A stretch of 64,000 bases of DNA from Alcanivorax sp. REN37. Its GTDB lineage: Bacteria; Pseudomonadota; Gammaproteobacteria; Pseudomonadales; Alcanivoracaceae. The number at the start of each line of letters is the position of its first letter. Within the stretch, counting starts at the first letter, position 1. The position numbers and the translations under genes were made by a program. Below, one piece after another: positions 50,185 through 61,338 of the stretch. The stretch lies in assembly GCF_041102775.1 (NCBI RefSeq), contig NZ_JBGCUO010000001.1, positions 868,001 to 932,000 of the forward strand, read 5' to 3'. The notes under the pieces are model-generated. The model was given only the letters and a program-made list of their open reading frames with translations. It was not told the DNA's origin and made no database searches.

Positions 50185-50261
50185 TGGTGGCTACGGGTGG
50201 ATTTGAACCACCGACCCCAGCATTATGAGTGCTGTGCTCTAACCAACTGAGCTACGTAGCC
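50185..50261 (-). tRNA. tRNA-Met (CAT), elongator
   Basis: 77 nt including an encoded CCA. The acceptor stem is GGCTACG paired with CGTAGCC. D-arm AGCTCAGTTGGTTAGAGC, anticodon loop CTCATAA with CAT, and T-arm GGTTCAAATCC are all complete. The 5' GGCTACG matches elongator rather than initiator tRNA-Met. A terminator follows immediately. Confidence 0.97.
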
Positions 50262-56798: not shown

Positions 56799-57809
56799 AT
56801 GAGCAGCACCACCATCGCCGTGTGGCTTCACGCGGTCCTCAATGCTTTGCAGGCACGTGGGCTTGATGCCGACGCGTTGGCGGCGGCGGCCGGCTTGGCG
56901 CGTGCGCGCCAGTGCGATCCGATGGCACGGGTGCCGGTGGCGGCGATGACGCGGCTTTGGCAAAGCGCAGAGCAAGCCAGTGGTGATGCGGCCTTCGCGC
57001 TTGATGTGCCGGCCCATTTCAGCCCTACCTATTTCCAAGCGCTGGGGGTGGCGTTGGTGTCCAGTGCCACGGTGCGTGAGGCGTTGCACCGGGTGGTGGC
57101 GTTCTACCGGCTGGTGTCCGACAGCGTTGAGGTCTGTTTGCAACACAGCGGTGCCCACACCGCGCTGGTCATCCGCGCTAGCGGTGCGCCCGACAGCGTT
57201 CATCCGGCCGCGGTAGAAGCGTTCATGGCGGTGCTGGTGGATGGCTTGGTGCGCACGGCGCGGGTGCCGGTGCGACCGGTGCAAGCGCAGTTGATGCGGG
57301 CGCCGTGCGCAGCGCCACGGTTTGCCGAGTGGTTTGGCAGCGTGCGCTTTGGGGCCGCTGAGCACCGCCTGTTGTTCGAGCGCCACGGCCTGGAAACACC
57401 GCTGCTGACCGCCAACCCGTCGCTGGCCGCCCACGCGGACCGCGAGCTGCATCGCACCTTGGCGGCACAGCAGGGCGATCCGCTGCTGGTGACCGTGCAA
57501 GTGCTGCTGTGGCGGGCTCTGTGTGAACAGCAGCAGTTGCTCGACCAAGATGCGCTGGCGGCGCAACTGCATCTATCCACCCGCACCTTGCGCCGGCGCC
57601 TGCAGCGCGCCGGCACCCGCTTGCAGACCCTGCAGACAGCGGCGCGTAAACGGCGGGCGGCGGAGTTGTTGTTGGCGGGCGAGCCGGTGGGGCAGGTGGC
57701 GGCAGCGCTCGGCTACCAAGATGCGGGTAATTTCTCCACCGCCTTCCGCCGTTGGTACCGTTGTGCGCCGCGCACTTTCCAACAACGGGGTGGCCTGCCA
57801 TTGAAATAA
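56799..57809 (+). CDS. AraC-family transcriptional regulator
   Basis: 336 residues. The N-terminal domain is the Arabinose_bd/OruR type (HFSPTYFQALGVALVSSATVREAL). The C-terminal double HTH has LAAQLHLSTRTLRRRLQRAGT and VAAALGYQDAGNFSTAFRRWYRCAP. ATG 56799 is chosen. Its divergent position suggests control of the propeller/alkyl-sulfatase genes (80-bp shared promoter). The inducer is unknown. Confidence 0.9.
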   Translation: MSSTTIAVWLHAVLNALQARGLDADALAAAAGLARARQCDPMARVPVAAMTRLWQSAEQASGDAAFALDVPAHFSPTYFQALGVALVSSATVREALHRVVAFYRLVSDSVEVCLQHSGAHTALVIRASGAPDSVHPAAVEAFMAVLVDGLVRTARVPVRPVQAQLMRAPCAAPRFAEWFGSVRFGAAEHRLLFERHGLETPLLTANPSLAAHADRELHRTLAAQQGDPLLVTVQVLLWRALCEQQQLLDQDALAAQLHLSTRTLRRRLQRAGTRLQTLQTAARKRRAAELLLAGEPVGQVAAALGYQDAGNFSTAFRRWYRCAPRTFQQRGGLPLK

Positions 57810-57842
57810 TTAAACTGAATAATAAAAAAATGTCGCGATCAA

Positions 57843-57870
57843 TTGCGCCCGCGTTGCAGATGCGTATAAT
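57843..57870 (+). promoter_or_regulatory. Sigma70-type promoter for the mgtE leader transcript
   Basis: TTGCGC, a 16-nt spacer, and a perfect TATAAT at 57865-57870. The predicted start is near 57878, giving a leader of about 460 nt before the first structural gene at 58338. Confidence 0.65.
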
Positions 57871-57904
57871 CCGCCGCGTGTTAATTACTGCGGAGGCCCC
57901 CAGA

Positions 57905-57967
57905 GTGGGCACTTGTTCGAGTCACAGTTGTCAGCAGGCCTGGGCCTGCACCTTCTCGGCAAGATAA
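57905..57967 (+). CDS. Possible short leader ORF 1 (20 codons, GTG start)
   Basis: GTG at 57905 with GGAGG 8 nt upstream; the product would begin MGTCSSHSCQQAWACT and carries three Cys. It is in the 5' part of the leader. It may be a translated regulator or only a chance ORF. Confidence 0.35.
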   Translation: MGTCSSHSCQQAWACTFSAR

Positions 57968-58065
57968 CGCGCAGCAACACTGCCGTGATCGCGCCGGGAG
58001 CGCGAGGCGGCACGTCGAAGTCACACCCTTCCTTCGTTCGTACCTTCCTCTGAAAGACGCATAGC

Positions 58066-58096
58066 CACTGATTCGGCCTAGCCGTGCAGTGCTTTT
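58066..58096 (+). terminator. Terminator-like hairpin inside the mgtE leader
   Basis: CACTG/CAGTG outer and CGGC/GCCG inner stems (58066-58091) with a small internal loop, followed by C-TTTT-CT. Its position mid-leader suggests an attenuator; the U-tract is short. Confidence 0.35.
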
Positions 58097-58195
58097 CTGT
58101 GGTCCGTCCATGTGCTTCGGGGTCTTGCCCGTAGTGAACTCGTGCCCGTCGTCCGTGCGATGACGGTGCTACCGATGACGTTGATGGAGGCCGTT

Positions 58196-58291
58196 ATGGA
58201 CCCCGAACCTGGCAGTTGTCGATTTTATTGTTTTGCCAAAATTCATTTTAAGAATCCGGATTATTTATCGGAGGCTGACGCACGCCTTTAA
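58196..58291 (+). CDS. Candidate Mg2+-responsive leader peptide (31 aa, begins Met-Asp-Pro-Glu-Pro)
   Basis: ATG 58196 has a perfect GGAGG 5 nt upstream. The product starts MDPEPGSCRFYCF and ends LSEADARL. Codons after the first seven are AT-rich, unlike neighbouring genes. Known biology: the mgtA leader peptide MgtL begins MEPDP, and alternating acidic/Pro residues destabilise translating ribosomes at low Mg2+. Inference: this ORF plays a similar sensing role. Codons 20-26 form the left arm of a stem reaching the next gene's ribosome-binding site. Confidence 0.5.
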   Translation: MDPEPGSCRFYCFAKIHFKNPDYLSEADARL

Positions 58292-58325
58292 TCAGGCCGG
58301 TGCCGCCCCCGATAAATGATTCGGA
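58255..58325 (+). promoter_or_regulatory. 17-bp leader RNA stem reaching the SD of the first mgt-operon gene
   Basis: TCCGGATTATTTATCGG (58255-58271) pairs with CCGATAAATGATTCGGA (58309-58325) over all 17 positions, two of them G-U. The right arm covers the first bases of GGAGGGAG (58323-58330), the SD of the gene at 58338. The left arm lies inside the leader ORF, so ribosomes reading it would open the stem. Confidence 0.6.
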
Positions 58326-58337
58326 GGGAGATGCACC

Positions 58338-59111
58338 ATGTTTGATTTCCACCACGCGGCCGATCGCGCCGCCCGTCGGGCAGCCTTCATCCGTGCCACC
58401 GCACGCCTGACCTCTCTCTCTCTGACTGCCTCTGCGGCGTTGCTGCCGCTGTCTGCCCAAGCCGGGCGCCCATGGAATACCGACGACGCCGGTGTGATCG
58501 ATGCCGGGGCCTGCCAACTGGAAGCCTGGACTGAGCAAGTACGCCATGACGGCCATACCGCGCCGGCCTACTGGCTGAACCCGGGCTGCACGCCGGTGGA
58601 GCGTACCGAGTTGTCATTCGGCGTCGGCTGGGATGATGACGACGACACCCACCTGACCGCTTGGCAGGTAAAGCACCAGCTGCGCGACCTGTCCGATCAA
58701 GCCCCCGGCTTTGCGCTGTCACTGGGCAGCGACCGCGACCGCCGCATCCACGACGACTTGCTCGGCGACATGACCTTCAACGGCATTACCAGTGTGCCGC
58801 TACAGGGCGAGGCGCTGGTGGCGCACGTGAACTTGGGTGTGACTCATCACCGCGACGAGGATCACGGCTGGGAAACCCGTGCCAACTGGGGCAGCGCGCT
58901 GGAATGGCAATGGCTGCCGCAGACCCACATCGGCGCGGAGATGTTCGGCCTCGGCGGCCAGCGTCCAAGCTGGCAGCTGGGCGCGCGCCATGAACTGCTG
59001 GCCGACCGCTTGCAGCTGGATGTCAGCTTCGGCGCCCCGGTGGGCCGCTGGCACGAAGAGCGCACCCTGACCTTGGGTGTGGTGGTGGTGAGCCCGGCGT
59101 TCCTGCACTGA
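58338..59111 (+). CDS. Predicted outer-membrane protein, first gene of the mgtE operon
   Basis: 257 residues. An Arg-rich N-terminus leads into a signal peptide (cleavage near SAQA-GRPWNT). The mature start GRPWNTDDAGVIDAGACQLEAW resembles an uncharacterised outer-membrane family whose members begin RP-x-x-TDDAG. Alternating beta-strands follow; WDDDDDTH is an acidic loop. The gene is 31 nt ahead of mgtE. A role in divalent-cation entry across the outer membrane is inferred only from context. Confidence 0.65.
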   Translation: MFDFHHAADRAARRAAFIRATARLTSLSLTASAALLPLSAQAGRPWNTDDAGVIDAGACQLEAWTEQVRHDGHTAPAYWLNPGCTPVERTELSFGVGWDDDDDTHLTAWQVKHQLRDLSDQAPGFALSLGSDRDRRIHDDLLGDMTFNGITSVPLQGEALVAHVNLGVTHHRDEDHGWETRANWGSALEWQWLPQTHIGAEMFGLGGQRPSWQLGARHELLADRLQLDVSFGAPVGRWHEERTLTLGVVVVSPAFLH

Positions 59112-59142: not shown

Positions 59143-60522
59143 ATGAACCGCAATGACTTGCTCAACCGCCTGAAAATGACCCTGCGTGCCGGCGACGTGC
59201 ACGCGTTCGCGCTGGCGGTACTCAACACCCCCCATGCCGACCTTGCCGATGCGCTCGCTGATGAGCCGATCCGCGATGTCATGAACATGCTGATGGCACT
59301 GCCGCAAACCCAGCGCGCCGGCCTGTTTTCCTACCTGCCGCAAGAGCAGCAGGATGCGCTGATCGGCATCATGCCGAAGGACACCGTGGTGCGGCTGTTC
59401 GAGCACCTGCCGTCCGATGATCGCGCCGACATCTTCAACCGTCTCAGCCATGCCGCGCAGAACCAGCTGCTGCCGGCGATGGCCAAGGTGGAGCGCGAGG
59501 ATCTGCTGAAAATGGCGTCCTACCCGGATGGCTCGGTGGGCGCAGTGACCTCGTCCGATTACGCCGTGGTCAGCCCCGACAGCACCGCCGCCCAGGCGTT
59601 GGCTTACCTGCGCACCCACGCACCGGCTAAAGAGACCATCTATGTGGTCTACGTGCAGGACGCGCAGAAACGGCTGCTCGGCACGCTGTCGCTGCGTGAG
59701 CTGGTGCTGGCGGCGCCGGAGCAGAACATCGCCGACCTGATGCGGCCGGATCCGATCTACGCCCGTGCCGAATGGCCGGCGGAGCAGGCCGCTGCGTTGA
59801 TCCGTCGCTACGACCTGCTGGCGGTGCCGGTGATCAACGGCGGCCAGCGCATGATCGGCATCGTCACCGTGGACGACGCCATGGACATCGAGAAAGAGCA
59901 GGATGCCACCTCGCTGTCACGCTTCGGCGGCAGCGCCACGCTGGAAGGGGACGACCTCGATCTGCGTGAATCCAGCTTCGGCAAGATCGTCAAAACGCGG
60001 CTGTTTTGGCTGGTGATCCTGACGTTCTTCGGCGTCATCACCAGCACCTATGTGTCTCATCAGGAGGACATCCTCAGCGAAGTGTTGGTGCTGGCGGCGT
60101 TCATCGCACCGATCGTCGACATGGGCGGCAATACTGGCAGCCAGTCGGCCACGCTGGTGATTCGCTCCATGGCGTTGGGTGAGTTGACGTTGCGCTGGAA
60201 GGATATTTGGTTTGTCATCAAGCGCGAATTGCCGGTGGCGCTGACCATGGGCGTGGTGATCTGCTTGCTGGAAGCGGTGCTGGCCTACTTCTCCAAGGGC
60301 GTCGGCATTGAAGTGTTGGCCACCGTCGGCCTGTCGATGTTGGCGTGCACCGTGATCGGCGGCGTGGTGGGTGCCATGCTGCCGTTCCTGGCGCGTCGCA
60401 TCGGCACCGACCCGGCGACGCTCAGCTCGCCGTTGATCACGTCGGTGATGGATTTGGTGGGCGTGTTCATCTACTTCGGTTTTGCCTACCTGTTCCTTGG
60501 CGATTTGTTGGTGGCCAACTGA
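59143..60522 (+). CDS. mgtE: Magnesium transporter MgtE
   Basis: 459 residues. The N-terminal MgtE domain (ALIGIMPKDTVVRLFEHLPSDDRADIFNRL; here IMPKDTVVRLFEHLPSDD), a CBS pair (AVVSPDSTAAQAL to VTVDDAMDIEKEQD), and five membrane helices from about 285. TM5 contains SSPLITSVMDLVGVFIYF, including the conserved pore Asp. A Mg2+ channel gated by cytosolic Mg2+. It ends 22 nt before an intrinsic terminator. Confidence 0.95.
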   Translation: MNRNDLLNRLKMTLRAGDVHAFALAVLNTPHADLADALADEPIRDVMNMLMALPQTQRAGLFSYLPQEQQDALIGIMPKDTVVRLFEHLPSDDRADIFNRLSHAAQNQLLPAMAKVEREDLLKMASYPDGSVGAVTSSDYAVVSPDSTAAQALAYLRTHAPAKETIYVVYVQDAQKRLLGTLSLRELVLAAPEQNIADLMRPDPIYARAEWPAEQAAALIRRYDLLAVPVINGGQRMIGIVTVDDAMDIEKEQDATSLSRFGGSATLEGDDLDLRESSFGKIVKTRLFWLVILTFFGVITSTYVSHQEDILSEVLVLAAFIAPIVDMGGNTGSQSATLVIRSMALGELTLRWKDIWFVIKRELPVALTMGVVICLLEAVLAYFSKGVGIEVLATVGLSMLACTVIGGVVGAMLPFLARRIGTDPATLSSPLITSVMDLVGVFIYFGFAYLFLGDLLVAN

Positions 60523-60543: not shown

Positions 60544-60571
60544 AAGGGCCGGTATCACCGGCCCTTTTTTA
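60544..60571 (+). terminator. Intrinsic terminator after mgtE
   Basis: AAGGGCCGG-TATCA-CCGGCCCTT followed by TTTT-A-TT. It separates mgtE from the mgtC-like gene. Confidence 0.9.
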
Positions 60572-60609: not shown

Positions 60610-61338
60610 ATGCAAAGCATTGCCAATATCAATCTCATGTCCTTGGCCGACACCACCGTCAGTCTGCTGGTGGCGTTCGTGCTCGGCGGCATCATCGGGC
60701 TGGAACGGCAGGTGCGCCAACGGACCGCCGGGCTGCGCACCAACGTGTTGGTGTGTGTCGGCGCCGCGCTGTTCGTGGATGTCGGCGTGCGCTTTTTCCA
60801 ACTGCATGGCGGCACCCCGAGCCCGCTGCACATCGTCGCCTACGTGGTGTCCGGGGTCGGCTTCCTCGGCGCCGGCGTGATCATGCGCGAGGAAGGCAAC
60901 GTGCGCGGCATCAACACCGCTGCCACGCTGTGGGGTTCGGCCGCCGTGGGCACCGCAGCGGGTGCCGACTTGATCCTTGAAGCGCTACTCGGTGCTTTGT
61001 TCGTGCTGGCGGCCAACACGCTGCTGCGGCCGGTGGTGAACCGCATCGATCGCCAGCCGATTGACGTGGAAACTGTGGAAGCCACCTACACCGTGTGTGT
61101 AATCACCCCGCGCGAGCACCGCGATCAAGCGCTGGCGCTGCTGGAAACCGTGTTTGAAACCGCCAACATTCCGCTGCGCGATGTGGACATCAACCCATTC
61201 GGTGAAGAAGAACTGGAAATCGAAGCGGTGCTGGTGCCGACCTCCATCAGCGGCGACCTGCTCGACAGCCTCACCGCGCGCCTGCGCCGTGCCCGTTACG
61301 TGTCGCAAGCGTTCAGTACTGCCAGTACCAGCGAGTGA
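60610..61338 (+). CDS. MgtC/SapB-family membrane protein
   Basis: 242 residues. Five membrane helices with [25 protein letters not shown] and [30 protein letters not shown], seen as [10 protein letters not shown]. The C-terminal ~85 residues form an ACT-like domain ([18 protein letters not shown]). Family members act in Mg2+ homeostasis and virulence. ATG 60610 has AAGGGAG 10 nt upstream. The terminator before it suggests readthrough or its own promoter. Confidence 0.9.

Follow-up and report, generated by a model that had tools for sequence, protein, structure and literature searches.

The leader of mgtA in E. coli and Salmonella encodes MgtL, a short peptide that starts Met-acidic-Pro-acidic-Pro. 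In low Mg2+ the ribosome drops off at EPDP, and completed translation of the leader switches expression off via Rho (PMC11282234, citing earlier work); the same sign is given in PMC11552253, in a passage stating that no Rho effect on E. coli mgtA was detected. The corL leader ORF of the Mg2+-transporter gene corA, described in the same two bacteria, also lowers expression when translated efficiently (PMC11552253). In Salmonella, the leader of the mgtCBR operon carries two tandem short ORFs, mgtM and mgtP, together with expected stem-loops, and is called a "singular example" by its authors (PMC3641672). We found no other tandem leader of a Mg2+ operon in print. To our knowledge, intrinsic destabilization of the ribosome has been described as a Mg2+ sensor for one leader, the enterobacterial MgtL.

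RNA control ahead of mgtE is known as well, since the M-box (ykoK) controls this gene. The Thioalkalivibrio mgtE motif (SRC-65-1) is an unvalidated riboswitch candidate (PMC11109978). A leader peptide of mgtE is named in none of the titles and abstract openings of the open-licence papers that our searches listed, and the nearest published item to the leader described below is the mgtE motif.

The DNA analysed here is a 64,000-nucleotide stretch of the Alcanivorax sp. REN37 genome (the window). The 5' leader of an operon for Mg2+ transport contains ORF2, a short ORF with its own Shine-Dalgarno sequence; the features are as follows.

58186-58190, + strand: Shine-Dalgarno sequence GGAGG of ORF2, five bases before its ATG
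58196-58291, + strand: ORF2, encoding the MgtL-like leader peptide MDPEPGSCRFYCFAKIHFKNPDYLSEADARL; 31 codons, of which codons 1-5 are conserved as peptide in 16 loci
58338-59111, + strand: gene of an outer-membrane protein, predicted 12-stranded beta-barrel of 257 residues; no Pfam or NCBIfam family at threshold
59143-60522, + strand: gene of the MgtE magnesium transporter (TIGR00400; score 334 bits, cut-off 233)
60546-60570, + strand: intrinsic-terminator-like hairpin GGGCCGG-TATCA-CCGGCCC-T6, found by eye
60610-61338, 3' of the terminator-like hairpin: MgtC/SapB-family gene

Because the terminator-like hairpin with its six T precedes the MgtC/SapB gene, the operon probably comprises the barrel gene and mgtE only, the MgtC/SapB gene being a separate unit. 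The ORF2 product (MDPEPGSCRF...) has the N-terminus Met-Asp-Pro-Glu-Pro, the distance from the ORF2 stop to the start of the barrel gene is 46 nt, and the GC content of ORF2 is 42%, compared with 64% in the whole window. An original prediction, made from the letters of the window, had described a 31-codon ORF with a perfect Shine-Dalgarno sequence and this start, ending 46 nt before the next gene and AT-rich in GC-rich surroundings, and it is borne out on each of these points.

ORF2 resembles mgtL in being a short leader ORF that starts Met-acidic-Pro-acidic-Pro, with completion expected to mean off and drop-off to mean on. It differs from mgtL in the transporter (MgtE here, the P-type ATPase MgtA there), in the mode of output (predicted sequestration of a Shine-Dalgarno sequence here, Rho termination there), and in its setting, since it stands in tandem with a second leader ORF (ORF1), has a barrel gene in its operon and occurs in lineages outside the enterobacteria. 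The residues after position 5 are, we assume, unlike those of MgtL. The conserved N-terminus of the corL product differs in having a single proline, and corL is Rho-dependent and serves the CorA transporter (PMC11552253). The mgtM/mgtP pair, likened to the present leader by description and not by sequence, differs in that its signals are ATP and proline and that transcription is controlled (PMC3641672). The leader of the window shares with the M-box and the mgtE motif its position ahead of mgtE, but contains neither an M-box nor any other Rfam match. The mgtE motif, set apart here by description, is a riboswitch candidate of one genus, and the passages that describe it mention no leader ORF (PMC11109978).

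Relatives of the window MgtE were collected by scanning 84,980 species with six short peptide patterns, a search that is not exhaustive; it yielded 35 loci with 34-66% identity. In 13 of the 35 scan loci the mgtE operon is preceded by a short ORF with an M-[DEN]-P-[DEG]-P start: two in Tepidicella, two in Iodobacter, and one each in a Burkholderiales bin, Pseudomonas sp. 8O, P. paraversuta, Thioalkalivibrio denitrificans, Crenobacter, Silanimonas, Achromobacter, Schauerella and Chitinibacter. Genome searches added two further loci: one, L081, from the same genus as L049, the other, L133, from the same family as L051. Besides the window, the carriers span nine other named genera. In 14 of the 16 loci the start conforms to acidic-Pro-acidic-Pro, the departures being MNPDP in Thioalkalivibrio denitrificans and MEPGP in Crenobacter. 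The ORF is 29-37 codons long across the loci, and its stop is separated from the next start by 44-50 nt in 14 of them and by 37 and 59 nt in the other two.

Such starts are more frequent ahead of mgtE than expected by chance. In 20 genomes, which together make up about 78.5 Mb, the pattern ATGRANCCNGANCC has 85 occurrences; without the 12 leaders, the background rate is about 4.6e-7 for each nt and strand. Chance would thus supply about 0.02 occurrences over the 35 x 1200 nt upstream of mgtE, where 12 were seen. Among the 293 genomes of the order, GGAG-N4-10-ATGGANCCNGANCC matches four times, ORF2 included. The other three matches lie within or antisense to long ORFs, none of which resembles a Mg2+ gene when the translations are inspected by eye.

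The codons of the conserved start vary in a way that points to the peptide. Codon 1 is ATG in all 16 sequences; codons 3 and 5 encode Pro in all 16, with all four CCN codons in use. At codon 2 there are 12 GAC, two GAT, one GAA and one AAC, and at codon 4 nine GAC, three GAT, two GAG, one GAA and one GGC. Over codons 2-5, the first or second position deviates in 2 of 128 cells, whereas the third takes three or four bases. Because positions 1 and 2 are near-invariant and position 3 varies synonymously, selection, as judged from the alignment, acts on a five-residue nascent chain rather than on RNA structure at the ORF2 start. The absence of codon-level conservation had been named in advance as grounds for abandoning the idea; instead, M-[DEN]-P-[DEG]-P with synonymous third positions recurs in 15 other loci. 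This peptide-level conservation upholds the proposal of an MgtL-analogous leader ahead of mgtE, with its Mg2+ response presumed by analogy.

This pattern of variation also bears on the reading of the leader as a structured RNA element, perhaps a riboswitch akin to the Thioalkalivibrio mgtE motif, in which ORF2 would be incidental. The motif, with 32 representatives, all in Thioalkalivibrio, is reported to carry a Shine-Dalgarno sequence and an AUG at a stem base (PMC11109978), and the two hairpins described below, A and B, are stable in comparison with shuffled sequences. Synonymous third-position variation in codons 2-5 argues against it, as does the lack of an Rfam match in the leader. At gathering score, the tRNA at 50188-50261 is the sole Rfam match in the whole window, and 14 related loci have none; a search of 57780-58420 returned no match at E values up to 5. 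In particular, neither the window nor the 14 related loci matched the covariance model of the M-box (ykoK) riboswitch. Furthermore, in the family of L051 (47 genomes), MDPxP or MNPDP leaders were seen in two among the mgtE copies inspected; identity of the mgtE motif with the ORF2 leader, judged by description, is not supported by the mgtE copies inspected in that family. We regard a structured element with incidental ORF2 as very improbable.

The two invariant prolines raise the question of the signal. A leader sensing the supply of proline or the activity of EF-P instead of Mg2+ would have a precedent in mgtP of Salmonella mgtCBR, which responds to charged tRNA-Pro (PMC3641672), and two Pro codons among the first five are invariant in the 16 loci. 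However, the acidic residues at positions 2 and 4 are nearly as constrained as the prolines, with 2 departures from Asp or Glu in 32 cells and none from Pro in 32, although a proline attenuator has no need of acidic residues, and mgtE is in the operon at all 16 loci. A proline signal thus appears quite improbable.

From codon 6 onward, all three codon positions vary among the 16 loci. Small proteins that act on other transporters are known, MgtR and MgtS among them, and ORF2 might likewise encode a protein acting in trans, its position reflecting mere co-expression. The conserved coding start is compatible with such a role. Against it, residues past about the sixth are unconserved between lineages, and the ORF2 tail is on average constrained by pairing with the leader of the next gene, so that we consider a trans-acting protein extremely improbable.

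The operon behind ORF2 varies in composition. Where the barrel gene is present, ORF2 precedes it (the window, L051, L059, L069 and L071); in seven loci (L046, L047, L049, L060, L063, L064 and L081) it lies directly before mgtE, and in L052, L053, L080 and L133 before a short ORF, the downstream start in these four being picked by eye from its Shine-Dalgarno sequence. ORF2 is therefore the head of the mgtE operon, with or without the barrel gene.

ORF2 was absent from 22 of the 35 pattern-scan loci, ten of which have an ORF1-type leader alone (nine Stenotrophomonas-type loci and L050). An ORF starting MDPGRT... before mgtE in L070 was not counted as ORF2. When the leader DNA (58180-58345) was compared with the 293 genomes of the order, the window itself was the sole match. 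The window's family has 45 further places with mgtE; 30 of them were inspected, and all 30 lack an M-[DEN]-P-[DEG]-P leader. The leader is rare, given its absence from the other 292 genomes of the order and from the 30 inspected family places. At the level of the class, 52 of 130 genomes had an MgtE match; the 29 other MgtE loci fetched from these have no ATG-[DEN]P[DEGS][PS] ORF with a length of 6-60 codons within the first 1700 nt. Close members of the MgtE group (E <= 1e-130) are present in 3 of 199 genomes of the genus of L049, 2 of 399 of the order of L069 and 3 of 151 of the order of L059. A plasmid collection contains 116 MgtE-matching records, all below 60% identity to the window MgtE.

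The region between ORF2 and the barrel gene contains the following elements.

58255-58325, + strand: hairpin A, predicted anti-sequestor; 58255-58271 pairs with 58309-58325, extended inwards around the stop codon
58299-58337, + strand: hairpin B, predicted sequestor; takes up Shine-Dalgarno bases 58323-58324 plus 58326-58328, as well as the five bases that precede the AUG
58323-58330, + strand: Shine-Dalgarno sequence of the barrel gene, GGAGGGAG, read from the letters

The stem of hairpin A had been part of the original prediction and was recovered: codons 20-26 of ORF2 (58255-58271) pair over 17 bp with 58309-58325, reaching the next Shine-Dalgarno sequence. The 124-nt stretch that contains it folds at -43.0 kcal/mol (z -4.06), and none of 200 dinucleotide shuffles was as stable, although the same absolute stability is not unusual in this GC-rich window, where 71% of 1500 randomly drawn segments of this length equal or surpass it. 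Hairpin B (-20.0 kcal/mol, z -3.83; stability reached by none of 200 shuffles) engages five of the eight Shine-Dalgarno bases of the barrel gene. A and B are mutually exclusive, because both need 58309-58312 and 58321-58324. Judging by the positions, the inner part of A would be occluded by a ribosome standing at the ORF2 stop, and B would stay largely free.

The sign of regulation had been held unreadable, on the grounds that the stem would by itself repress. The stem exists, but predicted competition from hairpin B changes its meaning: since B buries the Shine-Dalgarno sequence and A prevents B, the prediction makes A the on state, which suggests that "anti-sequestor" describes the stem better than "repressor" does. 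We calculated the cost of opening the next Shine-Dalgarno sequence with the first ten codons masked (aborted) or with everything up to stop+5 masked (completed). In the window, opening costs 9.8 kcal/mol in the aborted and 14.6 in the completed state. At stop+5 the completed state is the costlier in 14 of 15 leaders, by a negligible and hence neutral margin in L047, with means over the 15 of 6.1 (aborted) and 9.7 kcal/mol (completed). The mean difference of 3.6 compares with 1.4 in shuffles of the leader tail (sd 0.5, max 2.6; 100 shuffles) and with -0.25 when tail and intergenic region are both shuffled (sd 0.4, max 0.7; 100 shuffles); mean differences at stop+0 and stop+9 are likewise above both shuffle sets.

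Folding thus predicts two exclusive leader structures chosen by the completion of ORF2, with an outcome that for single leaders depends on the mask: the predicted sign is seen in 11 of 15 at stop+0 and 10 of 15 at stop+9. The leader of P. paraversuta (L053) has the opposite sign at stop+0 and stop+5. L133 agrees at stop+5 (aborted 6.8, completed 11.0 kcal/mol) and flips at stop+9. Considered one by one, only seven of the 15 leaders exceed 95% of the shuffles of their own tail. Five leaders could be aligned (two from Pseudomonas, two from the family of L051, and Crenobacter); in these, segments at the ORF end, in the middle and at the Shine-Dalgarno sequence pair into two mutually exclusive stems, in which 45 of 50 and 36 of 40 cells, respectively, are paired, compared with 18-58% in slid controls. 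Compensatory changes in the stem had been proposed as a check; the five alignable sequences hold one two-sided change per stem, which does not go beyond the shuffle control.

The reading that we favour and regard as reasonably probable is that ORF2 is a Mg2+-sensing leader peptide that switches translation of the barrel gene and mgtE via hairpins A and B. With ample Mg2+, ribosomes would read all 31 codons to the stop, and a ribosome terminating there would cover the leader tail and block hairpin A. Hairpin B would then pair away the Shine-Dalgarno sequence and the bases before the AUG of the barrel gene, leaving the barrel gene and mgtE poorly translated (off). In low Mg2+, the Asp-Pro-Glu-Pro nascent chain would destabilize the ribosome, which would drop off after a few codons; codons 20-26 would be free, hairpin A would form and prevent B, and the Shine-Dalgarno sequence would be easier to open (on). 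This sign is assigned because the predicted hairpin anatomy was combined with the off state of MgtL on completion. Translation of ORF2 is presumed, Mg2+-dependent drop-off and the Mg2+ response are transferred from MgtL, and the output, by the folding model, is probably initiation of translation, to which Rho polarity may add.

The same peptide and the same drop-off could alternatively govern Rho-dependent termination of transcription, the hairpins at the Shine-Dalgarno sequence being secondary. MgtL and CorL work through Rho in Salmonella (PMC11282234, PMC11552253), and a segment at about 58021-58052, after hairpin 2 of the upstream leader, is by eye C/T-rich and could suit Rho. On the other hand, the folding contrast is centred on the next Shine-Dalgarno sequence, with a mean above both shuffle nulls; the spacing from stop to start is near-constant, as a start-codon switch requires; and no Rho effect on E. 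coli mgtA was detected (PMC11552253). We consider Rho as the main output unlikely, and prefer control of initiation by hairpins A and B.

ORF2 is preceded by a second leader ORF with its own potential hairpins.

57843-57870, + strand: sigma-70-like promoter TTGCGC-16-TATAAT, found by eye and weak (first hexamer 3/6 matches), absent from the results of the promoter scan
57905-57967, + strand: ORF1, upstream leader ORF M-GTCSSHSCQQAWACTFSAR-stop, GTG start, 20 codons
57958-57995, + strand: hairpin 1, whose 5' arm holds the ORF1 stop codon; from alignment and pair listing, no shuffle control
57981-58012, + strand: hairpin 2, excluding hairpin 1; from alignment and pair listing, no shuffle control

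With a promoter at 57843-57870 the transcript would begin just upstream of ORF1, which sits about 230 nt before ORF2 in the window. Of the 15 other ORF2 loci, 13 yielded a counterpart of ORF1, among them Schauerella with MGPCSSDSRRPVRDALAAPSAR and L081 with MEGPSSRSRIDETQAR; none was found in the two Iodobacter loci. In an alignment of five species, 58 of 70 cells of hairpin 1 are paired; pair 92-123 is A-U in three species, C-G in one and unpaired in the window, where 3 of the 14 pairs are broken. Hairpin 2 has 44 of 50 cells paired in five species, and its pair 123-136 occurs as G-C, U-A and G-U. A second group of loci has a counterpart of hairpin 2 alone, with pair 97-117 as G-U, A-U or G-C. 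By alignment and folding prediction, the leader has the layout of a tandem attenuator, that is, two leader ORFs, each by alternative hairpins. ORF1 with its own exclusive hairpin pair is probably a second, separate input.

In the Stenotrophomonas-type loci the ORF1-type leader, alone, has a TTG start and mostly reads MDSHSRSRCCS. A record titled Bacillus subtilis (L061) holds a barrel-mgtE locus of this type with the ORF1 leader MDSHSRPRCCA, and is probably a mislabelled or contaminated assembly.

The barrel protein matched no Pfam or NCBIfam family at threshold, with one sub-threshold Pfam match, DUF1376 (E 0.02). Its AlphaFold2 model, built on an alignment of ten sequences, consists of a signal helix and 12 strands (pLDDT 86.4, pTM 0.75), and among the best 50 of 1027 matches in a fold search of the PDB, the leading ones are barrels of the outer membrane, for instance FapF, KdgM and the COG4313 channel. 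Members of the family adjoin mgtE in the window, L051, L059, L069, L071, the Stenotrophomonas-type loci, L041 and L042, and an MscS-like gene, named by eye, in L003 and L042. The barrel is possibly an outer-membrane partner of MgtE for Mg2+ uptake, and this unnamed protein is flagged here as such. In L133 and L052 the ORF after the leader resembles by eye a decayed barrel gene, with an MLHI/MLKF start as in L051 and divergence thereafter; in the genome of L133 the adjoining MgtE match covers residues 1-172 only.

Cousins of the leader precede related mgtE genes. The other mgtE of the window's genus, 38-41% identical to the window MgtE, has a leader ORF starting M[DE]PSS in 7 of 7 genomes: the window's own (L137) and six others (L006-L009, L011 and L013). 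This ORF lies 138-223 nt upstream of the matched mgtE start, and has conserved first codons; hairpins span the region where mgtE starts. With the mask at stop+5, completion makes opening harder in four of these seven leaders, leaves it unchanged in one and makes it easier in two, and because of these mixed signs we claim no switch for them. In Mailhella, 2 of 5 loci have ORFs preceded by a Shine-Dalgarno sequence and starting MDSHS or MESHP.

Compared with MgtL, the new elements of the ORF2 leader are another transporter class, probably a translational output, and the tandem arrangement. A five-residue start of the MgtL kind, under peptide-level selection and with an apparent Shine-Dalgarno switch, stands before another class of transporter in nine other named genera, and this suggests that Mg2+ sensing by ribosome destabilization is a general principle. 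More broadly, and with somewhat less than even confidence, we propose a mobile, self-contained Mg2+-response module, carried by an mgtE lineage scattered over beta- and gammaproteobacteria with a two-stage leader. ORF1, read first, would set one exclusive hairpin pair, and the ribosome-stability sensor ORF2 would switch mgtE initiation via the second, with or without the barrel; since related mgtE genes are preceded by cousins of the leader (M[DE]PSS in the window's genus; MDSHS in Stenotrophomonas; MDSHS or MESHP in Mailhella), loss of ribosomes through the nascent chain would then be a general, repeatedly reshaped control of MgtE and no enterobacterial oddity. Natural variants of the motif, namely the GGC codon 4 of Crenobacter, the AAC codon 2 of Thioalkalivibrio and the M[DE]PSS cousins, offer material for probing its chemistry.

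Two features of the flanking DNA were also observed. In the Iodobacter loci (L060 and L064), upstream of 4862, a long inverted repeat, GGGTCTGTTGACGTTTCATTCAC and its complement, is seen by eye just 5' of the leader; both arms are present in L060 and part only in L064, and by eye the repeat resembles a small mobile element. In Tepidicella xavieri and two Burkholderiales bins (L046, L047 and L050), a gene for a UPF0016/GDT1-like cation transporter, recognized by eye, lies directly 5' of the mgtE leader.
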